A stretch of DNA of 64,000 nt. It comes from Hyalella azteca (lineage: Eukaryota; Arthropoda; Malacostraca; Amphipoda; Hyalellidae). A model generated the notes under the pieces. It saw only the letters and a list, made by a program, of their open reading frames with translations. It ran no database searches and had not been told where the DNA came from. The stretch spans positions 45,121 through 109,120 of the forward strand of contig NW_025947505.1 in the NCBI RefSeq assembly GCF_000764305.2. The letters run 5' to 3'. Shown here in pieces: positions 3,268 through 59,239 of the stretch; within the stretch, counting starts at the first letter, position 1, and every line of letters starts with the position of its first letter. A program made the translations under genes and the position numbers.

Positions 3268-6200
3268 ATGGTCAGAAGCAGAGTTTCGCTGCTGTTAACT
3301 TTATTCCTCGTAGGGCTCCCAAACTCTGGCACCACTGCCAATGGAGCTAATCGTTTCTTAGGCCGCGGGTCGGGTATACCCGCCGTTCACAAATGTTGTC
3401 CTCGGGATCAAGCGCTGCTAAGTGGCCGAGGATGTATCAGGTCTTCGAGTCCTCCGTCCGCTTATCTCACTCATCTACAGAATACCATGTCGGTGAGGGT
3501 GGGCTTCCCAGTACCTCGCAATACCACATGCACCATGATGATGCTCAGGAGAGACATTAAGCATGTGGCCACATGGTGGATCAGTCGAGTTGGTCTATTG
3601 GCCGTCGAGGCACCTCAGGGAGAATTAGCCATTCACAATTACTGCCTTGACGACCTTGTTGATCCTGTGACTAACGCGGCTTCTCCTTCAGCTGTCACTT
3701 GTGTTCATGAACTCAATGGTGAACTGCAGCTTCCTCTTTCTTCTTTCCGGAGTAAGACGGTTGGTAAATGTTGCGCAAGAGACCAACATTTCTCCCACGT
3801 GAACCGCACATGCCAGACTGGGGCAGAAGGAATCCCCGATTGGGAAGTGCCAGTTCCTGGAGCCGATAACGAAACCCAACTCGGCTACACTGGTTTCCCC
3901 AGTTGTTCTTCAGGAAAGTATTCAACTTACTACTTCGAGAACAACACCAAGGAACACGTCAGACTTTCCGCGAACTTGAGTCTACTCATCGTGCGAATGA
4001 ATGGACATTGTGTCGAGAGAGAAAGTACTGTGAGCCTCAAAGATTATTGTTTTGACTATGAATGGGATGGAAAACGGGAAGCCAAACCTTTGGCCGTAGT
4101 TTGCCTCGAGCCTGACGATGTTCTTGATCTGCTCGAGGTGGAGCAACAGCCTGCTCTGCTTGTGCTGCTTTCGCTTTCCTGTATCGCCCTCATTCTCACC
4201 CTCATCTTCCTGGTCGCCCTTCAAGCAAAAGGCTTCGTCCAGCACGAATCCCAGGTAAGAGTTGGCGCAAACGATCTCAGTCTTACCATATTATTATTAT
4301 TAATAAACGTTCGTCAAGAACATGAATGCTGTACCTCAACCAATATTTTTGCTGCAAACTATCACACAGGGTCGGCATTGTAAAATTTTTCTCATGTGGT
4401 GCAACTATATACCAAAAACTATGATACTTCTATCGGTCACTGTTTTCACAACGAACGTTGCTTATAAGCTCACTGAAAGATGTTTATGACATCGAACAGC
4501 TCGGAGAAAATACATATGTTGAATAAATAATATATATGACTGTGTTATATTTACTATTACAGATCTCAAAAACAATTGAGATATTAGGCTGATCACATTT
4601 TGCGCTTCATATTTTCTTCAATACGTGAATATCTTCGTTTTTTACAATAAGTTGTAATTCTTTTATTTTCTGTCTCGTGATTAACTCCAGGTGTGAAGGA
4701 TATTTTCATTCAACAGTTTAGATCAAAATCTAAATATTTTAAATTTATCAAGATCACAATCCTCGTATTCATTTTAATTTTCAAATTTCATATCATAATT
4801 CTCTTGAATTACTCTGGCAATTTTTATATTCTAGTCATGGCAACGAATTTTCTAATTTTAATTCGTAAACGTTGCCTGCCTCATTTCCATTCAAATCGCT
4901 TTCTCTTCAATTCTTGTAATCACATGACATCTTCGAATTGTTTATCTCATGGCAAATATTTCATTGTAAAATCTTTGAATTATTTCATTCTCTACCTCAT
5001 GACACCCATCAATTGTGATTCTCTCAAGGCAGATTTATCATTTCAAGATCTGTAATTCATCTTTATTCTCTTCCTAATCGCGCTGATGCTTGGTGTAAGT
5101 TTCATCCGGATTACGAATGTTTTTCTGTTCAGACGGACCTACTGGCGCCGCGCACTCACATTACCTACGTGGTCGCGATGCTGCTCAGCTTCTTCGTTTT
5201 TGCTGCGGCCAGTGGGCTGGATGCACACGAACGTTCGTCCCTCTGCAAGGCTACGGGTGAGCTTACACTTTTACTTTCGTATTAACTCTGACTGTCGATT
5301 ATTAATTATTTTTTCATTTACCTTATCATCCCGATTTGTTTTTCTGTTGTATAAGTTATTCGTTTATCCCGCCTGAACCTTCTCTATCAACTCAGTCAGC
5401 CTCCCCTTCTTTCTTTTCTGGTTATTCGTCGCGCATATTTTTTTTTCTAATTCGTGATTGTATGTTTCCAATCTGCCTTTTTGCTTACGATGTGGACTAG
5501 CAAGAAATTCGGATGTACACTCAAGGCAAAAGTAATTGTAACCGCCACGTTTACTAACAAGGAATACATATGTACACTGGAATAGTCCAAGCACAAATAA
5601 TTGTAATCGCTCCGTGGACTAGCAAGAAATACGGAGGTACACTCTAATGCACAAATAATATTCTACTTGCGTCCTGCCATGAACAATAAGGTCTCACCGT
5701 CCGGTTCAGCGTCAGGATATTTGCCATATACGTAACCATTGCATCCATTCAAAAAGTTTTTTCAGATTTTCATTATAACAGATTTTATCAAAATCTAATC
5801 TGATGAAATAAGAGACAAACTGTTCGAATTTATGGTGAGTCTTATACTCTAGAAATTGTATGCCCACTTTCTAAATTTTCAGTCAGAAATCAAATTATTT
5901 TCGAGAACTCTGATGAAAGTGAATTAATCTGGTTTGTTGCAGGTGGATTTTTAATGTTCTTCATCCTCGCCGGCTTCCACTGGAACACAGCCCTCTGCAT
6001 CGAGTCGTTGCTCATCATCATGTGAGTTGAGGAGACACTGGCAGCGATGATCAAGTCCTAAGTTACAAGTTAAATATTTTGACATGAACGTAATCTACTC
6101 CTTAATTATTTATGCACAGCATAATTAGCTCTAAATAATTCATTTTTCAATGATGATATAAAGCAAGACTAGGTACGTATATACTAGCTCATATTAGATG

Positions 6201-9200
6201 ATCTCCTCGTCTTAAATTGGAATTCATTTGCAAAATGCCATTGCTGGTTAATACTATAACATGTAGGTATCCTGTCACCCTATAATACCGTCACTAACTT
6301 AAGAGTTATTTTGCAATTTAAAGTTATTTTGAAGCGCGGTAAATTTTTTCCTAACTAAGGGACAGATTTAGTTTTTTTTCAATGGTCAATATCTAAACGC
6401 TGTACAACCTATCACTGAAGAACGTGATCTCTTCTCAGTTGAATTTGAGAAGTTCAACACCTTCGTCAGTGTTGGGCATCGTCAGGAATAAAATTACTGC
6501 ACGTTACTTTTTGCTACTTTGAGTCGAACGTACCGACAATGCGTGTCTTCAGGAGGTACGGAGTGACAGGCTGGGCTCGTTACGCCGTCCACTGCTGCTG
6601 GGCGTGGGGTATGTTCAGGCATTTATAATATTGTTTGTTCAGGAGGTACGGAGTGACAGGCTGGGCTCGTTACGCCCTCCACTGCTGCTGGGCGTGGGGT
6701 ATGTTCAGGCTTCTATAATATTGTTTGTTCAGGAGGTACGGAGTGACAGGCTGGGCACGTTACGCGGTCCACTGCTGCTGGGCGTGGGTATGTTCAGGCA
6801 TTTATAATATTGTTTGTTCAGGAGGTACGGAGTGACAGGCTGGGCTCGTTATGCCCTCCACTGCTGCTGGGCGTGGGGTATCCCCGCTGCTATCACGTTC
6901 GTTGCCATGAGCCTGGATGCTCACAGCGACAACTTGTCATGCAGTGCCATACTGCCCAGGATTGGAAAATTCAAGTGCTTCTTTTCAGGTGATCTTTATT
7001 ACTTGACTTCATGGCAATTTGTTGACAGAATAAACTCTTAGAATATCTGCAAATTAAAATATTTTTAAGCAAGGAAAATGCTGAGATTGATTACTAGTGT
7101 CAATGATATTTATTTTTCATATTTTTAATCGATTTTGGTTATTTAATTGATAGTGTTATTAGTTACTGACTAATATAAAGATATCACTAAGTGGAATTTT
7201 ATTGTTTTTCAGTCGTACTCAATTTGTTTTATAATTATCGTGTATGTTAGCCCGGAGTTGGTTGGGAGCTTACGTGGTAAGGAAACACGGCAAAGGAGGG
7301 TAACGCAAAGTGCTGATGGGTAATGCCGAGTATCAGGGATTACAAGATGTTTTAGTTTATCCCAGCCCAAAACCCAAATCCAGCTAGGCAGGGTAACCCG
7401 AGGTATCAACACAACTCAGTGCAGAATAGCAACCCAGTTTGGAGTTAATTCGAACTACCATCCTGACTAGGCATTGCACGGTAACGCAGTTACTATAATT
7501 GTGTATCCCGCGGCAGGGTATCTAGGTATCAACGTGACTCCATATAGCAGGGCAACTTAGTTTGGCTGGATAGCCCAGTTTGATAGGGTTACTCGACAAA
7601 ATTGGCCAAAATTCGACCCTGAGACTAAGAAAGGCTTCCGATTGGCCAAAATGCGAACCGACCGACTTGCTTAAATATAGACCAGATAAGATCGACGCCA
7701 CGAACACGCGAGTTCTTCCCCATCATCATATAAACTTGATATTTATTACAGACCCGGACGCCTACATGCTGTACTTGTACATGCCGATATTTGCGACGTT
7801 GGTGGTGAATCTGGTGACGTTATGGGCTGGTCGACGCATCCGCCTTATGCGTCTGCGTAGACTTGAGCTCGGCGCCAAGCATCACCACAAGCGTCACGCT
7901 TCTTCTGGTAATAGTTAGCACACAGTTTCATTGAAGAAAATGTTGTGTAAATTGTTCCACTAATTTAATGCGTCATAAATCAACGAATCAGAAAGATTAT
8001 ATGCTCTCAAGTTCCCTAAAGGTGTCTAAACGTAAGGAATATTGCATTATTGTCATCAAGCTCTTCAGAGGTATTCTGACTCTTAAATGACTAGATTTAA
8101 ATGTAATCTTATCATATCAATGGTTGTGAAATGTTGAATTTCTGCTTCTATTGTTTATCTTTTTAAAAAATAATTTTGCCGTAAATTTTTTTTTATTATT
8201 ATATGGTACAATATTGAGGACGGTGTCAGCTGTATAAATTTTCAGTCCAAGTATAAAGAGTTCACTTCAGTAATTTTTGTCCGCTATGTGACGATAAATA
8301 TCAGTATATTGGAAATGCCAATGATCTGGGCCTATACATTCAAAAAAAGTTAAGAGATCGTAAGTTCAATAGCCAATCATTGACGGCCTTTCAAGCAAAA
8401 TCCACCAATCATAGAGAAGAAAATAGAGCGTAAGTATTACGTTCACTTAGCGAATTTTGAAAGTATGGCCCCTGAACAAAAACATTAACATATAAAATTA
8501 AATGAAGCCGAGAATATATAACATAGGCTGGGATAATGTTGTGCAGGAGGCTCCGGTAACGGCAAGAACGGCACCCTGGAGGGGGACATCTCGGCTCCCG
8601 ACCTGCAGCGGCGGGCGCTAGGCCCCGCGTACTCCAGCACCAAGGGCAGCAACTCGTCCATCGCACGCTTCGGGCTCAGCTCCAGAGAAACTCTGAAACT
8701 GTAAATGAATTTAATTTTTACAGATTATTATGCCTCTATATGACGTAGCGTTAGCTCTTAAATTTACTGTACAGCAAAATGGAAACTCTGAAACTGTAAA
8801 TGAATTTATTTTTTTACATATTATAATGCCTCTACATGACGTATCGTTAGCTCTTAGGTTTACTGTACCGTAAAATTAATTTCAATATTGTTTCGGTAAA
8901 TATGATTAGTTAGCTAATTGGTTGATTTTAAATATTTTTCGATGAGCGTACGGGGATTTGCGCATTCAATTTATCATGCTGAATAATTTAAAAAAAAAAA
9001 AAAAACAATCAAACGTTCTATAAAAATTTGAGAATTTTCATAGGTACCCACGATATTTTCCGATAGTTTACCATTTGTTCCATGCCTTCTGAATTAAAGG
9101 ATTCTATGTACAACATAATATCTTCAACAGGTGGTTGGAGGCTGTTTGCCTGGCCTTGTGGTCAGCCGTAACCGTGACGTTGGAAGTGATTGGATTTACG

Positions 9201-22569: not shown

Positions 22570-22822
22570 GGTCATCAACGGCCAAGTGTTGGCCGGTTAA
22601 TGGCCTGCGATACGTACGACGGTGATTTCTTCAATATTCAGCTGGTACACGCTGGTCATCAACGGCCAACCGTTGGCCGGTTAATGGCCAGCGATATGTA
22701 CGACGGTAATTTTGTCAATATTCAGCTGGTACACGCTGGTCATCAACGGCCAACTGTTGGCCGTTTAATGGCCTGCGATACGCACGGCGGTAGTTAAAAT
22801 ATTCAGCAGGCGCACGCTGCTT
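22570..22822. repeat. 84-bp tandem repeat, three copies, with palindromic core
   Basis: Units start at 22570, 22654 and 22738. Each holds the near-perfect palindrome CGGCCAACNGTTGGCCG, a second half-site ATGGCC, and ATATTCAGCTGGTACACGCT. The period is 28 codons, so a frame stays open by chance. The same orientation is kept in all three. Confidence 0.93.
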
Positions 22823-22927
22823 CGACGAGTTGAGGCGCGTGAGCTGCGAACGAGCAATAAGGAAGCGAGTTCAAGCTTCACGGTCATTACCGCTGCTCGC
22901 GGCATGTCGGACAGCAGCATTGTTTCA

Positions 22928-23380
22928 TCTTAACGCTATTGAATTTGTTCGATGTGGTCTTACATTCCTTATTTTTCTTCTTAACGCTATTGAATTTGTG
23001 CAATGTGGTTTTACATTCCTTATTTTTCCTCTTAACGCTAGTGAAATCGTTCTATGTAGTCTTGCATTCCTGTTTTTTCTTCTTAACGCTAACGAATTTG
23101 TTCGATGTGGTCTTATATTCCTTTTTTATCCTCTTAACGCTAATGAATTCGTCCTATGTGGTCTTATATTACTTATTTTTCCTCTTAACGCTAACGAATT
23201 TGTTCGATGCAGTCTTACATTTATTTTTCCTCTTAACGCTAGTGAATTCGTTCTATGTGGTCTTACATTACTTATTTTTCTTCTTAATGCTAGTGAATTC
23301 GTTTTATGTAGTCTTACATTCCTAATTTTTCCTCTTAATGTAGTGAATTTGATTTATGTAGTCTTACATTTTTCGTTATT
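22928..23380. repeat. 51-bp minisatellite, nine copies
   Basis: The unit reads TCTTAACGCTANTGAATTTG, then TTCGATGTGGTCTTACATTC and CTTATTTTTC. The 51-base period is 17 codons, so two plus-strand frames (185 and 128 codons) stay open and give hydrophobic 17-residue repeats. Both being open argues that neither is selected. Confidence 0.93.
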
Positions 23381-27700: not shown

Positions 27701-30700
27701 CAGATGCTTACAAGGAACTATTGCATTGATGATTCTGTAGAGAATGAACAAGTTATCACGATTGCTCACGTTTGCACTGAAGAACTAAAGCAATCTGTGT
27801 CTTTGCCGTTATCCGTTTTTGACCGAGGAACAGTTGGTAAATGCTGTCCTTTCGAGTCTCACTTGTCACCCATAGAAAGGGATTGCAGTCCTGGCAAAAG
27901 CGTACATATCCTTGATGAGGATCCACTACTTGCAGTAGTCAATATCACAAAGTTGGGGTATACCGGCTTCCCTCATTGCGAATCCGGCCAGTATCATTTG
28001 TACAACTTTGACCCAAATTCAGGAGACCATGTTGTTTTTAAATCCGATTCACAACTCTATGTCGTGAGCATGGATGGCCGATGTGTCGAAAAAGAAACTG
28101 CTTTGGATAACGTGGAATTTTGCTTAGATTACGGCTGGGATGCCGAGGAGCCCGAACTGGCGTCTGCAGTAGTATGCGCACCCCCTGAAACTTCCAACAA
28201 ATATCATTCGGAAAAATATAACCTCACGTCAGCTCTGCTGGCAGTCTCCTGTTGTAGCCTCCTCATAGCCCTGGTCAGCCTCGTCTGCATGCGCGTGCGA
28301 AGAGGACTGGTCACCGTTAAGAAGGTAATAATATTTGCTTCTTATTTAATTTACTGATAAAGTTCTCTATAATGTCTGGGTTGTTTTGGCACTTAACTTT
28401 TCCTACTTTCAATATAATTTCTTTCCATGAAACATTTGAATTTTACTTTTATTTTCTACAGGTAAAAATAAACAATCGATTTGCATACCAATTGAGTAGC
28501 TGAAAGCATGTACGCGATCGACTTGAAAATGGCCTGAAAAGAGAGAACAGTACTTCAAATATCAAAATATCACCCATTTGTCACTGTATTGTAAAAGTGT
28601 ATTTCAGTGTCCAATTCTGTTCATCATTCTGATTTAAGAAGTAACATACGCGTGCTTGTGTCTAACGCATGTTTACATGTAGATATAGATAATAAATTCA
28701 ACAGAACTAAAAATTCCTTGAACATTGCCACTGACGTCTTGTATATTACTAAAAAATACGCATGTATTACGCAATGTACGCCGGAATGTTTCAAATGCCG
28801 CATTATAATGGAGTTTATCGTATTTCAAGCTTATATTTCCTATCATAATGTATTCGATTGAATAAATTATTTTATCATATCCCACACGCGTGCAGATGAA
28901 CACATTGGCGGGCAGGATTCTGATCTCGTACGTGAGCGCCAACTTCGCGGGATTCCTCGCGCTTGCGATCTCAATGCACGTCGAGGCGAAGGAAGGCGCC
29001 TCAGTGTGCATGGCGCTGTGTGAGTACATAATAAACAGTGTTATTATTGTATCAAGTCCTTCAGTGTATATGGCGCTGTGTGAGTACATCATAAACAGTG
29101 CTATTATTGTAACAAGCGCTGCAGTATATATGGCGCTGTGTGAGTACACAATAAACAGTGTTATCATTGTAACAAGCGCTGCAGTGTATTTGGCGCTGTG
29201 TGAGTACATCATAAACGGTGTCATTATTGTAGCAAGCGCTTCGATGAGCAAGGCGCTGTGTGAGTACATCATAAACAGTGTCATTATTGTAGCAAGCGCT
29301 TCGATGAGCAAGGCGCTGTGTGAGTACATAATAAACAGTGTCATTATTGTAGCAAGCGCTTCAATGAGCAAGGCGCTATGTGAGTACATCACAAATAGTG
29401 TCGATCATTATTGTAGCAAGCGTTTCAATGTACATGGCACTCAATACGACTACACAATACACAGTGTTATTATTTTGGGTATTTGACTTGAAGGTGGTAT
29501 GGAGTGACCGGGACTTTAAAGATTCCACTGAAACATAGGCATGATTTGATAGGAAGGTAATAAAATGAGATGTTGGAAGCATAGTGAACTAGTCATTATG
29601 CTAATTATTTGTATAATTTGTATTTATGCAACAATAATAGATTATAATACATGATGGGAAATTTGGGCTGAAAATAATCGTTCTTTAAATATTTTGTCTT
29701 TATTTTAAAGGGCAATATCACTTAAATCTTTTACGGAATTATAGCTTTCCTGAAACTAAAGAACGTTTTTGAACACACATGAAACTATGTACCATCGAGT
29801 CACGCGTGTTCATGACCACGGAACACAAAATAATAAAACGAATGCAGGCTTAAATATGACACGGAACATAAAATAATATACTAACGAGTCACGCTTGTCC
29901 ATGTCCACCGTAAATGAAACATAGCTCTTAGTCATGTTCGGTCATGACTACGGAACGTGATCGCAAATATGGCTGCTGTCCAGGATATCATCGGATTGTA
30001 AATCCCGTTGAAAAATATATTCAGAAGAATATGGGTTTCGGCAGCTGGATTTTTTCAAAGTAACAATCTTTGCTTACACATAAATTGACTTGTTTGAAAT
30101 TCACATGGGCTAGATTAAAAAAAAAACATTGCAAGTTCTGAATTTTGCGCAGCGAAAATAATTTTTCCTTGGCAGTTGGGAAATTCGGGCGTTGATTTAC
30201 CGAATCAGCAATTCAAGAGCATTAACTTATGTGATTTTCTTTTCAATTGGCCACAAGCTAGATGTCATAGGAATATAAAATTTTTAAATAGTTGAAATTA
30301 AAATAATTTCTTCCGCGACTACCGTGCCGCACTGTATTTTGTATTTTTCCGCAATCATGTTAAAATAAAAGAAAACTAGCTATAGGGTTGCATTCTGACA
30401 ATTATGGATGAAATAAAAGATGTTGAATTCAGTAATTTAGAAATAGCAAGTAGAATATTGTACCAAACCTAATAAACCGGCTTCTTTTTCGTAAATTTCA
30501 GCTGGAATCGTGCAGTTTTTCTTGCTGGCTGCCTTCTTCTGGAACACCTCCATCTGTTCAGAGTCACTCTTCCTCACTCTGTGAGTGTTCGTTTTTCAGT
30601 TTTCGAAAACTCATCATCTTGCAACTTTTAGTGGCTTAAAACTTTCGGAAATAGAACAAAAATACTGGGAGATTGCACGTTGTCTTTTTCAATTAATTTT

Positions 30701-33700
30701 ATTTAGTGTGTACCCTAAATCTATTATTATATGACCTATATCACAAATTGTTTTAGAAAAAAAATCGGAAAAAACTGGCATTTTCTGCATTAACTGCATT
30801 GCTTAAATAGAAAAAATATTTAAAGCTGTTTTCGACGTTAAGCTTGTTTACCTGCATTTCAAAATATCACAATGTGCCACATTTTGAACTGCAAAGTCAT
30901 GGTGACTCGGATATTTTCATCAAACGCGACTTGAGTTGAATGTCATGCAGGCTGATGCACCACAAACCGTGTTTAAAAACAGGCTTTTATTTACTTGTGA
31001 TTCAAATACTTAACTAATTCGTTTAATATTTGATTGGGCAATGGCCTTCGAATTTGTTGAATTGTAAATACGAAATTAAATTCATCAATAAAAATTTGTA
31101 GCTGAAAATATTGTACATGAAATTTTTTTCGAATTATAATATCAATGGACATTATCCGATTTGTATCAATGATATATCTACTTGGCTGCTCAAAACTCAA
31201 TTTGAATTATAACCTCCCACTGGCGCTAAAATAATAGTTTTTTAATCAGGTTTACAATAAAACTGCTTATTTATAATAATGAATGAAAATATTTATAATA
31301 ATACTTTATTATTGTTAGACAAATATTTCGTTATATAACTACAAAGAATTTACACTTTTTAACCGGCAGTCGCGTAAGAGTGTCTGAAGGCCGTCGGCTG
31401 CTGTACCACAGCTTGTGGGCCTGGGGACTGCCAGCCGTCATCACCATCGTCGCCCTAACCCTCGACTCTGTCAGAGACCGCCTGCCTTGCGGCACCATAA
31501 CGCTCAGGGTCGGCCACGTCAAGTGCATCTTCTCAGGTTAGTATGTTGGAACATCAGCCGCCTGCTCTGCGGCACCATAACGCTCAGGGTCGGTCACGTC
31601 AAGTGCATCTTCTCAGGTTAGTATGTTGGAACATCAGCCGCCTGCCCCTCTTCACTATAACGGTCAGGGTCGGTCACGTCAAGTGCATCTTCTCAGGTTA
31701 GTATGTTGGAACATCAGCCGCCTGCCCTGTGGCACCATAACGCTCAGGGTCGGTCACGTCAAGTGCATTTTCTCAGGTTAGTATATTGGAACATCAGCCG
31801 CCTGCTCTGTGGCACCATAACTCTCAGGGTCGGTCACGTCAAGTGCATCTTCTCAGGTTAGTATGTTGGAACATCAGCCGCCTGCCCTGTGGCACCATAA
31901 CGCTCAGGGTCGGTCACGTCAAGTGCATTTTCTCAGGTTAGTATATTGGAACATCAGCCGCCTGCCCTGAGGCACCATAACGCACTGTGTTGGTCATGCC
32001 AAGTGCATTTCCTCTGGTTAGGATGTTAGAACATCACAAGCGTCGTTTCGTGCAACACGCTGTACAGAAAAAACTTTAGAGCGTCATCTCTGGTTAGTTT
32101 GTCGGAACATCCTTTTGGATGTTACGTGCAACAAACTTTGCAAATAACGATTGTAACGACGATAACTGTGATTCATTGTGTAATGAGTGCTCCAAGCGTA
32201 ATTATTCTATGTTTTGCAATATAAATGTAACTTACCAATAACAATAATTGCATTTGAAAGAATAACAAGCATGTCGTTTTGGGCGAACTTTTTATTAAAC
32301 ACCACATTTATTTAAGTATCGCGGGAGTTTTTGATATTTTGCGGCGTGAAAGAAAACTACAAGAGTTTATATTCTCAAACGTTTATTCCCTCGTTTACAG
32401 ACTCGGACGCAACGCTGATCTACTTCTACGGCCCCATAGCGATGACCCTTGTGGCCAACACGGTGCTGCTGCTCTCCGCCAAGCAAGCTCGCTTCGCTAA
32501 ACTCCAGCGACTAGAAATGGGACCCAGCAAACCCCCCAGCAACAGTAAAGCTAGACTTGCAATTTTTATATACTGAATATTAGCACATTTGAGATGATTC
32601 TTCATCTGATTTAGTATGTTATAATATTAACATAGTAGTAATACAACATAAATTTACATCATTCAGAGATGAAAATTCACTTATTTACGGGAACAAGTAG
32701 GTATATTGATGCCTCATAGAAATGTCATTTATATTCAACTATAAAGTAATAAATTTAAATTATTATATTTCTACGTACGTTTAAAAATTAATGTCTGAAG
32801 ATTAAATTTTTGTTTGGTTTAGTTTTTTCATTAATAGTATTTTACCACGTTTTTCTTAATTTCGCTTTGTCTCTGTCTGTCTGTCGTCAAAAATTCGAAC
32901 CTTAATTTCTAAGCACCTCTGAAGATCCTCGAAACTTGAAATTTGGCATGCAGAAGAAATAAGTTGAAAAAAATTATTTTTTAAATTTAAAATTAATAAG
33001 TTTAAAAAATATATAAAAAACCCTAAAAATTTACGGTTGAGAATCGAGTTAATTGTAGAACATCTAGAGTTGCCAACCCTAGAAAATGATTTGAATTGCT
33101 AAAATTGCTAAACTAAAAAGTAGAAAATAAACAAATATAAAAAACATTTTTAAAAACCGCGTTTATCTGGTGGTTACAAAACTAAAAACAATAAAGGAAA
33201 ACAAATAAAAAAAAAAATATTCAAAAAACCAGGTTTTCTTAACTGACAAAAAAGAAAAACTCTTACATAACATTCAACATAACTTTAATGTTAGGTTCTG
33301 TTCTAACCGTTGAGGCAAGAGGTTCCTTGTGCTAAGCTCCCATGACAGTAGCCGGCTTCGGCCGGCTGCTACGTCATCCTTTTTAGAACTATCTAGAATC
33401 TTTCTCGAACTTTGAAAATGCCGTACTGTCCCGCTCCGAGGCGTTGAGCCGGCGGATGCCATGGTACGACCAGCTAAAGTGAAGTGTCACTCCTGAAGTT
33501 GCCAAATTCGTTATTTTTGTGCTCCACTGAAGTTGCTGAATTCGTTATTTTTGTGCTCCCCCGAAGTTGCCAAATTTCGTTACAAAAATTTTAAGATGCC
33601 CCCATGTATGGTTAGTACCCCCGGGTTCGTGGTTAGTGCCCCCAGGTGAGTGGTTAGTGTCCCCAGGTAGTGGTTAGTGTCCCCAGGAGAGTGGTTAGTG

Positions 33701-36560
33701 TCCCCAGGTGAGTGGTTAGTGTCCCCAGGTAGTGGTTAGTGTCCCCAGGTGAGTGGTTAGTGTCCCCAGGCGAGTGGTTAGTGTCCCCAGGTGAGTGGTT
33801 AGTGTCCCCAGGTAGAGGTTAGTGTCCCCAGGTGAGTGGCTAGTGTCCCCAGGTGAGTGGCTAGTGTCCCCAGGTAGTAGTTAGTGTCCCCAGGTAGTGG
33901 TTAGTGTCCCCAGGTATGGAGTGGGGCTTTCTGCCCTGGAGTGGGGCTTTCTGCCCTGGAGTGGGGCTTTCTGCCCTGGAGTGGGGCTGTCTGCCCTGGA
34001 GTGGTGCTCTCCGCCCCGGTGTGGTCTCCACTTTGGTGGCCCCGTTCTGCAACTCTTCAGCCATTGAGAAATCTTGAGTTATTTTTTTTTTCAATGCACC
34101 CAATTTTGTACAAGAAAACATAATTCAGTCAAGATCCTTCAACTGTTCTGACATGGGGCCGCATTGAACCAGTCTTCAGAGGCTCCCATAAATTCCAATT
34201 AAAGAAAGAACTTTAATGTTATGTAAGAGTTAATGTTTTTCTTTTTTGTCCGTTAAGAAAACGTGTTTTTTTAAAGTTTTTTATTTATTTATTTTATTTA
34301 TTGCTTCCTTTAAGGCCAATACATAATGTATAATAAACCAATATTAGTCACTGTGTCAGTTCCATTCATGCAATAAATTGTGATGTTATTATGCGAAGTC
34401 TAACTGCTACAAAAATCGTTAGCTGTATTTGTCATGCATAACAGAACATGCATTGATTACGATTTAATGACATGAGAAAGTGTGGTTTGGAGTGAATGAA
34501 TATTTATGTGTTTATTGAAGGTTCAGTAGCTTATCCATGTGTCATTGAGTCGGAACTAAGAACCATAATAGAGAACGGCAGCTACTGATGGAGCAACGGA
34601 TGCCTAGAATTTCAACCGATACTATTACAGTTAACAGTTATCTATTAAATCATGTCGGCAGTGCATTGAACTGATATAAATTGCCAAAATCACGAAATAA
34701 TTCACTCAGTTGTTTAATAGCAATATAACCCCAGGCAGGCTTAACTGGTGTTGCACGTGGAAGAACATGGCTGTCTAATTCGTCGATCTGTTATAATCAT
34801 TGCATTTGCTCTAAATTTTGTTAATTAAAGAAATACCTATTGAAACTCAAATGCGACATGAAACCAATAATTGATTAAAGGCAGTACAATTAATTTGAAT
34901 CTTTGAATGAAATTTAAGAATTCAAAATTAGTTCTTAAATTTAACTTCATTATTTTGCAGAGTTTCTTGATTCCATTACCAAAAATAATAGTTCAGCCAA
35001 AGTATTAACCCATATAAATTTAAGCGAACAAGCTTTAAACATAAACACAATACCCGCACCAAATACCTATCTAAAATATATTATAAAGCAGAATTTAAAT
35101 ATTTTTTCATTCTCATCAGAGGGTTCAGTCGTGACCAGCCCCGAGGGCAAGAGCATGAAGTCTACCATCAGCAAGGCTCCTAGCGCTGGACATAGTGGCC
35201 TCCGCACGCACCAGAATAGAAACTTGTAAGTCCACCAAGAGTTTAAAAGCAGAGAAAACGTCAAGTAGACTCACCATAGCAATCTTCCATTCTTTGTACT
35301 ATTTTCATTCGAAACTAGTAGGTTAACTCGGCGTTGTCCGGACAAGATTTTCCCAACAATTAACGAATTTCGTGTTTCCGAATACCATCACCCTGAATTT
35401 CATCATCGTGAATCATGCCTTTTCGAAACCCGTTCTTCCAAACCATGTCTTAATGAGATTAGTTAAGACCTTTAAAACTAAAATACGCTAGAGAAAGGTA
35501 GATGTGCTTCGACCCAAAATTTGCATGGAAATTCGATTTTCTTCCCGTTGTAAACTTAACGGGTTTAAGTTTCCATTCATCCAAAAAAAATCACACTTAC
35601 CAAAGGAAAAAGTACTTTTAAATTTTTTAATCTAACAATTCCACAATCAGTTTTGACGTCTCATTAAATATTCTGACGCGATAAGTATCATGAATAGGTG
35701 TCTTAACACACGCGCAAAATTGGCGACTTACAAATACACAAGATTCGACAAAAGTATATATGAATAAATCGGATCCTCCATAGCAGATGATACGGTTTGC
35801 TCATTTCAAAACATATAAATTTCGATGTTTCAGTGTAGAGTTTCAAGTTTTAATTTTGTGCAGGTGGTCGGAGTCGGTACGACTGGTGCTGTGGTCAGGC
35901 CTGACGTGGGTACTAGAGGTCATAGGCTTTATAGTTCCGCGGTATATTTCTCTGCAGCAGGAGCGCTGGCATGACTACCTTTGGTACTTACCAGCTTCCA
36001 TAAACTCTCTTAGAGGATTCGGAATTTTTTTCATCCTCGTCATGACTACAGAAATGAGGAGCAAAATACTCAGAGCCATTGGAACATTCAAAGGAACATC
36101 TTCATCAATTTGGAAATCAGAAAGATCCCAACCACCGAGAAATAATAACTCATACCAAGCAAGTGGTGACGGTATCTCGATGACCACGCAATCATCAAAG
36201 TATCCGGTGCGCAATGTCAACAAACAAAGAAATATGTCCGTTGCAACCACAGTAACCAATATTACTCATTTACATCCATCACCTCATGACTCGGAGGAAA
36301 CCACAGTCCGACCCAGACTTGTTCACTCAATAAGTCAGATGGAAAGAAGGGAGTCGACCACTTCTTCAAATTTTTCTGCTGGCGATGAAGAGGTAGAAAA
36401 TGAAGATATCAGTAGACGGCGTCGGTCTTCCGCTGCACCGATATCTCTGCCGAGCGTGGATGAGGAAGATGATGATTTCATCGAGACGTCTCTGTCCACT
36501 GTAGCGCTACCAAAGGACTCGCCGACAGATTCTGTTTTTGGTCGAGATTCCGAAGCATGA
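24764..36560 (+). CDS. Methuselah-like class B (secretin-type) GPCR, gene 2, with giant ectodomain
   Basis: Seven exons: 24764-28324, 28896-29019, 30502-30580, 31370-31536, 32401-32544, 35120-35225 and 35864-36560. Phases are 0,1,2,1,1,2, as in gene 1. The product is 1625 aa. An in-frame TGA at 24725 fixes the start. After a signal peptide comes a stalk of about 640 residues rich in Ser, Thr, Asn and acidic residues with many N-glycosylation sites. Then come four KCC modules (C675/676, C797/798, C908/909, C1027/1028), where gene 1 has two, and the GYTGFP segment. TM1 is near 1156-1178 and the other six follow in exons 2-7. Family motifs are FFWNT in TM3, AWGLP in TM4, LIYFYGPI in TM5 and NSLRG in TM7. 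The tail of about 170 residues is Ser-rich and acidic. By family it is a cell-surface receptor whose ligand cannot be told from sequence. Confidence 0.92.
29001..29440 (+). repeat. 60-bp tandem repeat carrying the exon 2 donor, seven copies plus a decayed one
   Basis: GCGCTGTGTGAGTACATMAT recurs every 60 bases, with donors at 29020, 29080, 29140, 29200, 29260, 29320 and 29380. The reading frame of exon 2 is open from 28896 to beyond 29440. Each unit would encode 20 residues like CEYIINSVIIVTSAAVYMAL, and each donor leaves the same phase 1. The first donor gives an exon of 124 nt, matching gene 1, so it is the ancestral one. Confidence 0.95.
31477..32036 (+). repeat. 80-bp tandem repeat carrying the exon 4 donor, seven copies
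   Basis: The unit contains CCGCCTGCCCTGNGGCACCA, CACGTCAAGTGCATCTTC and TCAGGTTAGTATGTTGGAAC. The coding exon ends at 31536 in the first unit. Donor-like TCAG/GTTAGT follows at 31616, 31696, 31776, 31856 and 31936, and the seventh copy is decayed (TCTGGTTAGG). A partial eighth lies near 32085. Reading past the first donor meets TAG in frame, so only the first supports the full receptor. Confidence 0.95.
33611..33915. repeat. ~20-bp minisatellite, about 15 copies
   Basis: The unit is GTGGTTAGTGTCCCCAGGTGA with 18-21 base variants (AGGTAGTG, AGGCGAGTG). Every unit carries CCCCAGGT, a donor-like string. Lies within the inverted-repeat element. Confidence 0.92.
33916..34020. repeat. 20-bp minisatellite, five copies
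   Basis: The unit GGAGTGGGGCTTTCTGCCCT directly follows the previous array. The last copy is degenerate. Confidence 0.92.
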
Positions 36561-37721: not shown

Positions 37722-39420
37722 TTGAAGTAGGGCCTCTGAAAAATACCGATATCCCAATTGGAGACGACCAGGGCATGTGCAAACTGCTAGGAGCGCAGTT
37801 CGAAGAAGAATTCAGCAAATCTCGATAAAAACAGGAGAACGAAACTGGAGGCATTCAAGAACTTCTAAGGGGGCCGGTGCTGATGAACTTTGAGTTTGAA
37901 ACACCGGATCTTGAGAGGAGCATCCAAGAATTATCGGTTTATTCGGCTCCCGGGCCAGATGGGGTCACTGCACTGTTACTGAAAAAATGTGTCGGTACAC
38001 TAAAGGTCCCTCTGACTTTGCTCTAGAAAACATCATTAAGAGAAAGAAACATTCCTAGTGATCTAAAATTCAGGCTAATAACCCCAATCTACAAAGGAAG
38101 TGAGCGAGATAAATCCCAAAATTACAGGCCGTTTACATTAATATCACACGTAATCAAAATATTTGAGAAGGTTGTTGCAGTACATGAAGGAAGCTGACCT
38201 TTTCAACAGAAGGCAACAAGGTATTAAACGAAATCGCTCTGTTTGTCTCAGTTACTGGAACATCACCACCAAATCCTGGACATGCTGGTGGAGGGGGCCG
38301 GGTGAACGTGGTGTATTTGGACTTCGCAAAGCGTTTGACAAAGTTGATCATGGAGTGCTCTTCAGAAAATTAAGTCTACTGGGGGTCGGAGGTGAGTTTC
38401 TGGCATATTTCGACAGCTTCCTAACAGAAAGACTACAAGCTGTTGTTTTTGGAGGCTCGAGATCGAGCGATGCTAGGGTGAAGAGTGGAGTACCACAGGG
38501 AACGGTATTAGGCCCAATCCTCTTCCTCGTTCACATTGCCGACATAGATGCGGGAGTGAATCCCGCCACTGCATCGTCATTCGCGGACGACACCAGGATA
38601 CTAATGACCATCAGGGGGACTGCGAGAGCTTGCAAGACAGGAGGGACTGTGATAGCTTGCAAAAGACCTCTCTGCATTATATGAATGGGCCCAAGCGAAC
38701 AACATGCAGTTCAACGGGACCAAGTTTGAAGTATTGAGATACAGAGGTAGCGGAAGGGTGGAATAAGATAAGCGGAACCGATGATCACACTCTTTAGAGC
38801 CATTGTAATACCAATCTTTGAATGCTGCTGCCAGCTCTGGACCCCGTTCACACTCGACGTTGTGCGGCAACTGGAAGGGGTCCTACGAACCTTCACATCC
38901 AGGATCAGAGGGATAGAGGAGTTGAACTACTGGGAGAAGTTGAAGCGCCTGGGTCTGTACTCACTGCAGAGGAGACGGGAGAAGTATGTCATTCTGTACG
39001 CATGGAAAATTATACCCAGAATGACACCATACCTCGAGAGCGAGACCTTCAGGATTGTTAAATTTCATAACGAGAGAAGGGGGAGACTGTGCAAGATCCC
39101 CTCCTACGTAACAGATCTGCGGCCATATTTTCAATCCCTGCGGGAAGGATCACTTTCTGTGGCAGGCGGAGGCTGTTCAACGTCCTACCAAAGGATCTAA
39201 TAGAGGGGGAATTCACCCTGGAGACCTTCAAGAGACGACTTGACGTGTTCCTGGCATAATCACTGATCGACCTCCCCTGCAACACTACCAGCGGCGAGAG
39301 CAAGCAACAACATCGAGCATCAGAGGGCCCAAATGAGTGCCGATGCGTGAAAGCCAGAGGCGGCGATCCATCTTGACCTGTCAATGTAGCCATGAGATTC
39401 AAGTAAATTGCTGATCTTCA
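37722..39420 (+). pseudogene. broken non-LTR retrotransposon (LINE), reverse transcriptase region
   Basis: Reading in changing frames gives the linker before the RT domain (GPLKNTDIP at 37727), APGPDGV (37950), NYRPFT (38122), AFDKVDH (38330), SGVPQGTVLGP (38487) and FADDT, the catalytic metal-binding box (38580). It ends with the C-terminal region typical of such elements (CCCQLWTPFT, YSLQRRREKY). A one-base deletion near 38325, an in-frame TAG near 38024 and other shifts make it inactive. The endonuclease half is missing. The family looks Jockey/CR1-like, but I cannot assign the clade. Confidence 0.88.
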
Positions 39421-53954: not shown

Positions 53955-56900
53955 ACTGTCATTGCTTGAGATGTCATCCACTCCAGAGTGAGTCCAGAAC
54001 CCAGACAGTGATTTGTCAGTGGGATTGTGATGTCAACCACTCTTCCAGGTGTTTTTGCCAGGGACTAACGCCACAGCCTCACAGGTGAGGCAAACTCATT
54101 GCCTACTTTTGGAGTTTCTTTGGCAACATCCCACGGACCCAGTGGCGACCCACTATACCCAGTATCAGTATGAATTGGAGAATGAAAGAGAAGTAATTAT
54201 TTAAAACAGGATTTTACATTACAAATCTTTCATTACAAAAACAAAGGCAGAAGACCCTGAGGTAAAATAGTTCAGGCTAACAATAAGGATTAAAGAACTT
54301 CTGCATGGGCATGAGTGCCCACCACTTGCAAGAACTGGTGTAAAGACAGTGTGTAATGAGATACCCTAAGCAAGAGGTGAGTAGGGCCGGTAGGGTATGT
54401 TTAGTAAAAATGAATTCAGTTAAAATATGGGTTGCAGTGCCAGCTGAAAGGCTTTCAGCTGGCACTTCAAAAGTTCAACTTGCAGAGTTCCCAACTTGAT
54501 GCAGACATTTTGAAATCGAAGTTCTAACTTCCGAAGTTCTAATTGCAACTGGAGTATAATGAACAACTTAACAAGAGCAAGAACGGTAAGAAATTTATCC
54601 ACGAAATTATAACGTTTGAAAGTTGCTCACGGACCTCACGGTACCCGGGCCGGTAGACCGGTAAGTAGGAATAACGTAGCAACTAAGAAGACTAACGAAC
54701 CAGTAATGCGGGCCTGTGGCTAGGCTGTGAGTGTGAGCATCCAGACCGACCGCCATCATCATGATTCTTGAATATTATGTGGGCTGACTGGGCTCCACCA
54801 ATCATCACGTCGTCACTATTTTCCACTTCACCCGCCGATGCAGCATACTGTAAAGCCGTTAACCAACGCGACATGTAGAAACCGTTGGCCAACGCGACAT
54901 GGAGACAGAACTTAGGTACTTACTTGGTTTAGATACGGCGCATCACCGACGACGGTATTAGCCGCGGTCAGCGCCCGTGGAGACAGAGGAGAAAAGGAAG
55001 ATTCTGGAATCTGGAGGCCATCAATGCCACATGAGATGCCACTTGCGGAAAACCCGCTATAGAATATATACTAATTTAAAAAAGCTACCGGCATAATTTA
55101 ATGTGAAACATTTCACATTTAAATAATTTTAGTAATTAAATAATTTTACATTACTTTTAAGTAACGAGTAATTAATAAATTTTACAGTAACTCTAAAATG
55201 CAAGTTTCAATTTTAAAGGAAAATACAGAAAAATATCTTATATTACTCGAATATTTAATAAATTAGTAGTTCCTGAGGCCTCGCAGAAGTGGCGAGGTAT
55301 ATTGTACCTACTTTTAAGTCGCGTGACACAGCGCATTCAACTGAGCGTGGCAGCATTCCATAGTCCACATAGGTAATAGCTGGCCCTAAGCTCCATCGAT
55401 AGATCCCCTTGCCTGTTTCCTGTACCTCTGCTGACCATCGGCGCACCCATTCCTGGTTGATGAGGGTTTTTATGGTACAGTTCCATCCTCAAAGCACACT
55501 TGAGACCTTGCTGTACGATTATTTGAATGTGCCATATTGGCTACTTTGTCTGCAACCTCATTCCCGTGGATACCACTGTGACCCCGTATCCAACAGAGCA
55601 CCACCTTGTCAAGTCCTTTGATCAGCATCAACTTGTGGATCTTAAACACAAATGTGCGATGGGAGCGTCCAGATGTAGAGGTTAGAATATGCAGGGCAGT
55701 CCTTGAATCCGTCAAAATTAAAACAGGCTCTTCCTTCAGAAGTGTATCTTCAATGGCCAGCTGCATGGCCATGAGTATGGCAAACAGTTCAGCGACGAGT
55801 GCACCGTGTGCACTCGTCGGAGCAACCAGCCAGTTGCCAACTGAGTTGATGGTACAAAGAATCCAGCAGCAACTGACCCATCAACAGACTTTGAGCCGTC
55901 TGTGTATATTTGGAAGTGTTTTGGTAGCGCTTCCTCCAAAAGTCCGTGAAGCAGTTCTGAATGGATTGATCTGACATGTTATTTAAGAAATTGTCCTTGA
56001 CATTGAGAAGAATACTTGAGGCAAGATCTACTTGAGGTGGGATTGGGCTTAACATGGGCGAAGCAGCACGTCGAGGGAGAGTAATACCCAGCTTGTGGAA
56101 GCTTTCACGGGCTCTGATGACAAAAGGTGTGTTGCTGTAGGTTCCCTGGTCAGTGAATCCCAAAATGTTTGGTACAGAGTCACCTGCAGGCATGTACAGA
56201 TATCTGATGACTCATTTTATGAAAAGGTACAGGAAACGAAGTTCCAGGGGTGCAACAAAGCTTTCAACTTGTAGAGAAACTATTGGAGTGGTACGGCGGG
56301 CTCCTTGGATGTATCGAAGAGCAGAGTTTTGCATAGTTTCAAGTGCCTTCATCAAAGACTTGGAGATGTCCCAGGAAATTGTGGAGCCATACTCCATCTT
56401 GCTTCTGATAAAGGCGACATAAATTTTGCGCAACAATTGTCGAGATGCACCCCACTTCACAGAGCCGAGCGCTCGAAGCACCTGCACTCGTTTCAAACAG
56501 GCAGTGCGAGTTACCCTGATGTGCTCCCGGAATGTAAGGTGTGGAGAATCAAAGTAGATTCCCAGCACCTTTTGGCAGGCCACATACTGTATATTTCTAT
56601 TGCAGACTTTGAGTGTGGTTGCAGGGGCAGTACGATGTGATGTAAATATCTGGTAGGTACACTTAGCTGGGTTAAGCAGAAACTGACAGCGATTGCACCA
56701 TTCACTAATCTCATCGAGGCACTGCTGCATGCGATCTCGAGCCTCAGCCATTGATAGTCCATTTACAAATAATGTTATGTCATCTGCATACCCCACAAGC
56801 GTGACATGTGAAGAGCGTGGAAGGTCATGCAGCATCACGTTGAAGAGTGTTGGGGAGAGCACAGCCCCCTGTGGTACCCCTACTCTCATGGGTTGAGACA

Positions 56901-59239
56901 TAGATTTTGAGTTTCCAACCCGTACCTGGACAGACCGGTTTTGAAAATAGCTGTACAGCCAAGCCAGCATCTGATCTCCCACTCCAATGCGGTGCAATTT
57001 AAAAAGTAGTCCATCAGGCCAAACACTGTCGAATGCTTCCTCTATGTCCAAATATACCACCAGGCAGTACTCATGACTAGTTCGGGCAGAGGTGATAACA
57101 TTTTTCAGCAGGTGCAAAGCGTCAATAGAACTTTTGCCTTTACGAAAGCCAAGATGCAGGGAAGGTATCACATTTTTACTCTCCAGAGCATACTCCAGGC
57201 GACGCAAAACCATGCGCTCCAGGAGCTTACCCATGCAAGGTAGGAGAGTAATGGGACGGTATACAGTTGGCTGTTCCAGAGACTTCCCTGTTTTGGTATT
57301 GGGATAATAGTTCCCTGTTTCCATGCGTCTGGAACAAGCCCAGGAATCCAGCTGGTGTTTAGAAGAGAGAGTAACTCTCTCTTGCACAACAAAGTGGCCT
57401 TTTTTGAAGAAGATGTTCATTATTTAATCATGACCCGGGACTGTATTTTTAAGTGTTTTCAGAGCCAATGAAAGTTCATTTTCTGTAAATGGTACACAGT
57501 TATAAAATTTTAGGCTTGATATGGCTTTGATGACTTCTGAAACTGCAGCTTCACCAGTGAAATTTCAAAATAGAAGCGGACAAATGAGTCTCAATCAAGT
57601 AGATGTACATTCAGGATAGCCTTTGAAGTGCTACTAAACATGAACTAATGGGATTTTTCGGCATGCCTTATACATGTAACCTCACTCTAACAGGGATGAG
57701 CAGAGGAAGTGCAGCTATAAAAATCTAACGCATTACTGGAGCGAAAAAGACTGCGCGTGCTACTGCTTTCCCGACGACAACTGCAGCACCGGTCAACGAT
57801 ACGACCACAATCTCTGCAGGTGAGACCAGAAGGACTCACGTCGCGGGAATGATAACTACATCTCTAGGTGAGAGGAAGTAGGATCAGGTCTTCAGAACAG
57901 ATCGCTGGTAGTTTTGCCACGACAGAAAAGCTGAACACAACATCTGCAAGTTAGACGATGAAGGGTACAGTCTACCTGACAGTAGATCACTCTTGCAGGT
58001 GAGACTGAGAGAATAGAACTATTTACGACAGTTGATCCCACCTGTAGAACGGCTTATAGGTAGGACTAACTGCGGGACCTGGTGGTTCCAGAAGACCTCT
58101 GAGGAATGATCTCATTTGATGCATTCATAATTAGCAATTCAAGTTCTGATACAACCACTATAAATTCCAATTCATGGACAGAATTTCACTTAAACAATGC
58201 TGTTTTCTAGCATGCGTTCGAAACATAAATTCGATAGTTAGTAGAGAAGAGTGCCACAGACCACTTGTGAGGGGTAAGGTACTCTTAGAATACATTCATA
58301 TTCTGCTCTCACAAATTTGTAGGTAATGGCTGGTTAGAAGTAAAGCAACACGTTTTGTGAGAAAGAATGCTAAACTCGAGTTGAATTGGAGCTATTTATT
58401 TGTTCGCGTTCATTAGTTAAATAATTTTTTGGCCTCTTAGCCATGAAGTGCGAAGATTTAAGAAGACGATGATCTAATTTCTATGATTTACAGTGATTTA
58501 TCTTTTTAGACTTATTCAAACATATTACATCTAAAACTTCAGGAAGCAAACATGGTTTTCAAAAAAAGTCGATAGGACACATTGATTTTTGTTTGAGTTT
58601 TCCTCCGCCGAAATCTGTATTTGTGTCACATATGACATATCTGTTGTAAACCTTGACGGAATCACTCTTAATTATTTCTTGTTACAGATGCACGCATGTG
58701 AACTTTGCGGCTCGATTACGACTCTCTGAACTCCCATCGTTCGCTACCGGTGAGTCAAACCAGAGCAGATTTTCAACAGCGATAATTAACAACAGATTAA
58801 ATGTTGTCGATAACAACAGATTAAATAAATCGACAGGTGATTAAGGAATTATTCTAACCATAGTTATCAAACTAAAAAATTATAGATTCCATACATGTTT
58901 ACAAAGCTAACTCGGATACGATTCGCATCTATGACTTAGAATAACAAAGGTTTAAATGACAGCATACAATCGTAACTTGGCTCGTGAGACTTGACGTGTC
59001 ATGAACACGTGGAAAATACATACTCAGAGGACCCAACCTCAAGTTAATCAACTCAGTTCGTCTATTAACAAACATTGGTAGTATTGCATTGAGTGCTTAT
59101 AAACTTTTGATATTAATTTAAATTTACAAATTTTAATTTAAATATTTAAGTCCATAATACAGCCAAATAAAGTTAACTAAAATTCCCAGGTCTGGACCGC
59201 AGGCCTGCCACTCGAGTGCCCATCACGTTCGGAGGGTGA
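53955..59239 (+). CDS. 3' exons of a cysteine-rich secreted-type protein, PDGF/VEGF-factor-like C-terminus (partial)
   Basis: Four exons: 53955-54084, 57694-57819, 58688-58749 and 59190-59239 (stop TGA). Donors are CACAG|GTGAGG, TGCAG|GTGAGA and ACCG|GTGAGT. Acceptors are CATTCTCCAG, CTCTAACAG, TTGTTACAG and ATTCCCAG. Phases agree at every join (2,2,1). Exon 1 gives CHCLRC and ICQWDC..RCFC. Exon 2 gives a Cys array with Trp (HYWSEKDCACYCF, then C, GQRYDHNLC), completed by the next exon to CRC. This CXCXC arrangement is the silk-type (BR3P) repeat seen at the C-terminus of VEGF-C/D and insect Pvf proteins. The cystine-knot exons should lie upstream and were not found, so the PDGF/VEGF identity is inference. 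Any secreted protein with such repeats remains possible. Confidence 0.6.
55255..57575 (-). pseudogene. non-LTR retrotransposon with reverse transcriptase and RNase H, degenerate
   Basis: A minus-strand frame of 402 codons (57420-56212) reads through the RT core: YRPITLLPCMGKLLERMVL, LGFRKGKSSIDAL, YLDIEEAFDSVW, GVPQGAVLSPTLFN and the catalytic box YADDITLF. Downstream, in shifted frames, are RNase H motifs: YTDGSK (about 55900), LILTDSRTAL (55720) and WIRGHSGIHGNEVAD (55590). An RNase H domain after the RT points to the I-type group of LINEs. A frameshift near 57290 joins further RT sequence up to about 57575. The endonuclease is missing and at least three shifts are needed. It lies antisense in the intron of the cysteine-rich gene. 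Confidence 0.93.
57800..58060 (+). repeat. degenerate repeats of an exon donor sequence
   Basis: ATCTCTGCAGGTGAGACC at the true exon end (57810) is echoed by ATCTCTAGGTGAGAG (57860), ATCTGCAAGTTAGAC (57942) and CTCTTGCAGGTGAGACTG (57990), at irregular spacing of about 50 and 80 bases. Flanking sequence is poorly conserved, so this is an old or partly chance repeat. Confidence 0.45.

Follow-up and report, generated by a model that had tools for sequence, protein, structure and literature searches.

Tandemly repeated exon–intron boundaries in two Methuselah-like receptor genes of Hyalella azteca

In the amphipod Hyalella azteca, exon 2 of a Methuselah-like receptor gene runs into a series of closely similar 5' splice sites set 60 nt apart, which raises the question of whether the gene produces receptors of graded length or carries a repeat that leaves with the intron. 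The first-pass annotation of this locus proposed a built-in ladder for length variants, and named decoy or neutral copies as the alternative. We analysed the window, i.e., the whole stretch of 64,000 nt, which holds two Methuselah-like receptor genes. It is highly likely that the series is a 60-nt minisatellite lying across the exon 2/intron 2 junction, of which the first donor is predicted to be used, and that it is mostly silent.

The two receptor genes and the array at exon 2

Both genes lie on the forward strand and have seven coding exons. Gene 1 (LOC108667208; 3268..10688) encodes 1074 aa, and gene 2 (LOC108667210; 24764..36560) encodes 1625 aa. Gene models using the exon-side copy of each repeated splice site were made from splice signals and the comparison between gene 1 and gene 2, before the protein search. 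The spliced models agree with the NCBI proteins of LOC108667208 (P0001) and LOC108667210 (P0005) at every letter, the gene 1 match having 100% identity. Since the gene 2 model spliced at the first donor equals the NCBI protein letter for letter, the database protein, itself a prediction, uses donor 1. The Methuselah N-terminal domain (PF06652) scored 28.5 bits in gene 2, against a cut-off of 21.5, and 18.9 bits in gene 1, just under the cut-off; a precomputed PF00002 annotation is present for both P0001 and P0005. The protein search found relatives with 78-80% identity in Trinorchestia longiramus; those from decapods, krill and isopods were more distant.

Exon 2 of gene 2 (28896..29019, forward strand) is 124 nt long, extends from TM2 to the top of TM3 and is ended by donor 1. 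It is followed by exon 3 (30502..30580, forward strand; 79 nt, TM3) and exon 4 (31370..31536, forward strand; 167 nt), whose end is copy 1 of a second array, array B. As the first-pass annotation had stated, the first donor gives the 124-nt exon of the family, and the same length is found in exon 2 of gene 1 (5133-5256). Only use of the exon-side copies gives the two paralogues the same lengths for exons 2, 3 and 4 (124, 79 and 167 nt). Elsewhere in the window, retroelement fragments with reverse transcriptase (PF00078) were seen at 38154-38681 (forward strand) and 56212-57420 (reverse strand).

The array at exon 2, array A, was placed by TRF at 28996..29438 on the forward strand, with a 60-nt period, 7.3 copies and 87% matches. 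Its unit combines 24 nt of the end of exon 2 with 36 nt of the start of intron 2. With up to one mismatch allowed, the donor motif starts at 29016, 29076, 29136, 29196, 29256, 29316 and 29376; shuffled sequence is expected to give 0.18 matches, and seven were reached in none of 100 shuffles. The first-pass annotation counted seven copies of a motif with CTGT before the splice point. Six of these stand, as the 12-mer CTGTGTGAGTAC is exact at six donors, but the seventh is CTATGTGAGTAC, with one change, so that donor 7 (29376) reads CTAT/GTGAGTAC (the slash marks the splice point). Donor 1 (29017..29025, forward strand; TGT/GTGAGT) is the site behind the NCBI protein. Donors 2-7 (29077..29385, forward strand) have the first base of the GT at 29080, 29140, 29200, 29260, 29320 and 29380, and the local sequence of donor 7 is TAT/GTGAGT. 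A decayed eighth copy that has lost the GT was recognized by eye at 29420..29479 (forward strand, ends approximate), part of which (29451-29474) is detected by BLAST, and a 4-nt insertion, GATC, lies by eye between donor 7 and this copy. Any two copies are separated by between 1 and 15 differences over the 60 positions, copies 5 and 6 by a single one.

When donors 1-7 were each joined to exon 3 at 30502, the frame stayed open in phase 1, and the products were 1625, 1645, 1665, 1685, 1705, 1725 and 1745 aa. Motif count, TRF and translation thus confirmed seven donors at exact 60-nt spacing in one open frame, and the 20 residues that each donor step was said to add. Read on the other strand, array A is likewise open (28673-29404, 243 aa), showing that in-phase open units alone yield long frames.

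Sister arrays at other splice junctions

A scan of the 24 junctions of the two genes for local duplicates found arrays at four of them, i.e., array A and three further arrays, B, C and D, all on the forward strand. Array B (31478..32036) has an 80-nt unit in seven copies plus a decayed remnant and covers the donor of gene 2 exon 4; its unit consists of 59 nt of the exon end and 21 nt of the intron start. Array C (6548..6881) has a 90-nt unit in four copies at the acceptor of gene 1 exon 4. Array D (8687..8876) has a unit of ~95 nt in two copies at the donor of gene 1 exon 6 (8700/8701). In arrays B and C, each unit consists of an exon piece and a stretch of 21 nt (B) or 34 nt (C) that starts with GT and ends with AG; in array C, inspection by eye did not show this 34-nt stretch in the outer flanks.

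In arrays B, C and D the one copy of those tested that gives a full protein lies on the exon side, being the first in the donor arrays and the last in the acceptor array. Shifting the splice site to an extra copy truncated the protein in 6/6, 3/3 and 1/1 cases, respectively; in this test of shifted sites, the eighth-donor entries for arrays A and B were set by fixed steps and do not represent aligned donors. Donors 2-7 of array B each truncate the protein (1311 aa), as does the second donor of array D. In array C the full protein comes from the last acceptor (exon start 6822), and acceptors 1-3 truncate it. Within array B, copies 4 and 6 are identical, and the edge copy has 13-19 differences over 80 positions. 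The edge copies are the most decayed in both arrays A and B, as in ordinary minisatellites. The paralogues differ in which junctions bear arrays, suggesting that the arrays probably arose separately after gene 1 and gene 2 split.

Short-read assemblies can mis-count tandem copies, and either the copy number or the arrays themselves might have come from misassembly. Repeat numbers of lancelet PGBD5 are indeed unequal between two assemblies, according to the available text of PMC3902484. However, the array A copies differ from each other at the positions given above, the four arrays have different units and decayed edge copies, and gene 1 and gene 2 are both intact, which makes an artefact of assembly barely credible.

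A splice-junction hot spot for duplication was considered and is not claimed, as the junctions are not clearly above other noncoding DNA (6-7%, P 0.06-0.08). Local duplicates were present at 4/24 junctions, compared, for matched single positions, with 104/1500 in introns without arrays A-D (P 0.08), 92/1500 in intergenic DNA (P 0.06), 150/1000 in all introns (P 0.50) and 140/1500 in all noncoding DNA (P 0.18). The junction rate was above that of coding DNA (15/600, P 0.003), a class that may include exon ends within arrays. Of the 26 merged TRF arrays, four lay on the 24 junctions, against 1.48 expected for arrays placed at random over the whole window (P 0.055), and placement within the two genes only gave P values of 0.046 to 0.078. 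For units of at least 30, 44 and 55 nt the placement P values were 0.018, 0.009 and 0.0017, with cuts chosen after the arrays had been seen; four of the seven arrays with units of at least 55 nt were on junctions. Given the small sample, these duplicate rates are what neutral duplication of boundaries with exon-side splicing would give.

Other tandem arrays were observed in and near gene 2. One in intron 5 (33600-33916) contains six perfect donor-consensus motifs, CAGGTGAGT, and the real donor of exon 5 (32544, ACA/GTAAAG) has the lowest score among the 12 donors. Two arrays upstream of the gene, at 22570-22792 (84-nt unit) and 22923-23370 (51-nt unit), are on no coding junction of gene 1 or gene 2.

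Use of the repeated donors

Production of a ladder would mean that several of the seven donors of array A are used, and that the receptors gain from 0 to 6 units of 20 residues each at the top of TM3. Every one of the seven is in frame and open to a full-length product, and array A is alone among the four arrays in being both in frame and open, as a ladder requires; the sister arrays B-D are incapable of working in this way. The probability that a given frame is open in a 60-nt unit taken at random from noncoding DNA of the window is 0.31 (0.38 for the intronic part alone), and the probability that a period is divisible by three is 1/3. The in-frame open array is thus only a mild point in favour of a ladder; by our reasoning, chance could well give rise to such an array. 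Donors 1-6 are identical, and on a small matrix built from the other 11 donors donor 7 scored above donor 1 (7.8 vs. 5.9). However, four further GT sites in intron 2 (29556, 29997, 30230 and 30358) also outscored donor 1, so that the matrix decides little.

The place of the insert bears on what longer receptors would be like. The first-pass annotation put it in extracellular loop 1; sequence alignment places it near there, four residues past a conserved Cys, but at the ECL1/TM3 border and not in the loop proper. This Cys at the top of TM3, which presumably has a role in a disulfide, occupies the position in all 19 aligned rows that have a residue there and is missing from all six extra copies, which have Tyr or Ser instead. 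Inserts of 20 residues at the start of TM3 would probably disturb the receptor fold.

Proteins from databases also speak against a ladder. The alignment comprised 20 of the 25 proteins found (P0004, P0012, P0023, P0024 and P0025 were left out), and two of its rows, P0021 and P0022, lack one side of the array A junction; none of the 18 homologues covering the site shows an insert. The 90% cluster of the gene 2 protein has one database sequence. No longer isoform was present among the 7993 scored candidates sharing most words with the gene 2 protein. The repeat unit was found in none of 7999 scored candidate proteins, again chosen as those with most words in common, a query that is blind to full-length isoforms since the scored candidates were only 313-997 aa long.

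Published experiments suggest how tandem donors are chosen. In a designed library assayed in human cells, the first of two identical consensus donors was predominantly used, and the same library showed no order effect for acceptors, as far as the available part of that paper goes (PMC6783452). Such a first-donor rule would fit arrays A, B and D, and the last acceptor of array C would be used without a rule of this kind. The built-in ladder of length variants therefore finds no support in the donor-1 protein of NCBI, the insert-free homologues, the loss of the Cys, the sister arrays or the first-donor precedent, and we consider it quite improbable. Of the two readings offered by the first-pass annotation, decoy or neutral copies are favoured.

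Splicing might instead be leaky, with intron 2 removed mostly from donor 1 and measurably from later donors. The receptors would then be graded in length by 20 residues at a time, the additions lying at the top of TM3, and the ladder would differ from animal to animal or between cell lineages, since the array is a minisatellite. Donor duplications in OCT1 can leak, at 38-52% in minigenes vs. 0.3-0.6% in liver in the accessible text of that study. Intronic minisatellites of C. elegans have been linked to alternative splicing in the part of PMC4039745 that was available, so such repeats can matter. We regard leaky use of the array A donors as unlikely.

Variation among the copies was compared between the exonic and intronic pieces of the units. 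In array A (seven copies, 4-nt insertion removed), 13/24 exon-derived and 9/36 intron-derived columns are variable. The corresponding values for array B are 20/59 exonic and 4/21 intronic columns, or 12/59 and 1/21 without the edge copy. Exonic columns vary more than intronic ones in both arrays, and by this measure no special constraint on the exonic pieces is indicated. On the other side stands the pN/pS of copies 1-6 of array A in the receptor frame, 0.47, which comes from 21 distinct changes, 13 of them nonsynonymous and 8 synonymous.

The least variable part of the array A unit is the donor core with its flanks, an observation that would suit a ladder and also a selected decoy or buffer, in which the additional donors would keep U1 snRNP close to the true site and make intron 2 splicing more faithful or faster while being unused themselves. 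The longest low-variation run, which includes the donor, spans 17 columns (permutation P 0.024, chosen post hoc), and the donor 9-mer is variable at 1/9 positions vs. 21/51 elsewhere in the unit (P 0.084). This conservation is weak and was picked post hoc; moreover, array C repeats an acceptor, not a donor, and edge copies decay. A selected role as decoys is hence very doubtful.

We return to the mostly silent minisatellite. Slippage or unequal exchange would have duplicated the boundary and then spread the copies. A duplication within the exon would change the protein and be purged, and one that carries the donor would leave its additional copies in the intron, where they would be tolerated. 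If the first of equal tandem donors is chosen, the extra copies are intronic, and this is why boundary duplication would be tolerated. Splicing at the exon-side donor 1 would let the other six donors leave with the intron, so that the receptor would be unchanged.

Relation to known boundary duplications

Minisatellite-like duplications of exon-intron boundaries, both 5' and 3', have been described in amphioxus as 'mirages' (PMC3087553), and the examples in the available sections of the literature include the globins BflGb6 and BflGb9, Adh3, TnC and PGBD5 (PMC3087553, PMC3902484). According to the same sections, the authors found regular splicing to be kept, based on Adh3 data and globin RT-PCR, noted length instability, and suggested for the globins that the repeats could serve as cryptic splice sites (PMC3087553). 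PGBD5 of lancelets has a 60-bp unit that overlaps exon 3 and adjoins a 5' splice site, and its copy number is 2 or 7 according to which assembly is used; as described in the part available, this is a close likeness to array A (PMC3902484). Most PGBD5 splice sites are predictions, and the authors disregarded an annotation in which the adjacent 108-bp repeats served as an exon, again in the text available (PMC3902484).

Like arrays A-D, mirages are tandem units, part exon and part intron, that contain a splice signal, and here donors (A, B, D) and an acceptor (C) are affected. Near-identical inner copies with decayed edges, and the involvement of more than one junction and gene, are also shared. 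Unlike the amphioxus mirages, the present arrays belong to an arthropod, occur at 4/24 junctions of two Methuselah-like receptor genes and are known here from one assembly. Haplotype or RT-PCR data exist for Adh3 and the globins, whereas in Hyalella the comparison is with database protein models that use the exon-side copies.

Two other known systems resemble the arrays in part. Intron gain by tandem duplication, represented in the accessible part of PMC4974935 by the Rogers model, potato RdRp and fission yeast 24-bp AGGT repeats, likewise multiplies splice signals by duplicating a boundary or AGGT in tandem. However, no new intron was seen here; exons 2-4 have the same lengths in gene 1 and gene 2, and all that the additional copies do is extend introns already present. 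Tandem alternative donors are short-distance 5' splice sites competing on one exon, with an enriched, transcript-supported class 3-6 nt apart, as given in the available text of PMC2423196. Array A similarly has several 5' splice sites at one exon, but they are 60 nt apart and alike by duplication.

Among the matches listed in searches of the open-access literature there was no arthropod mirage, and in the available part of PMC3152781 words for splicing and boundaries were not found. Array A is most likely a silent repeat of the mirage kind, in a phylum that is new for such repeats as far as the literature searched shows. The occurrence of four mirages in two genes suggests that such repeats may be common in the Hyalella azteca genome.
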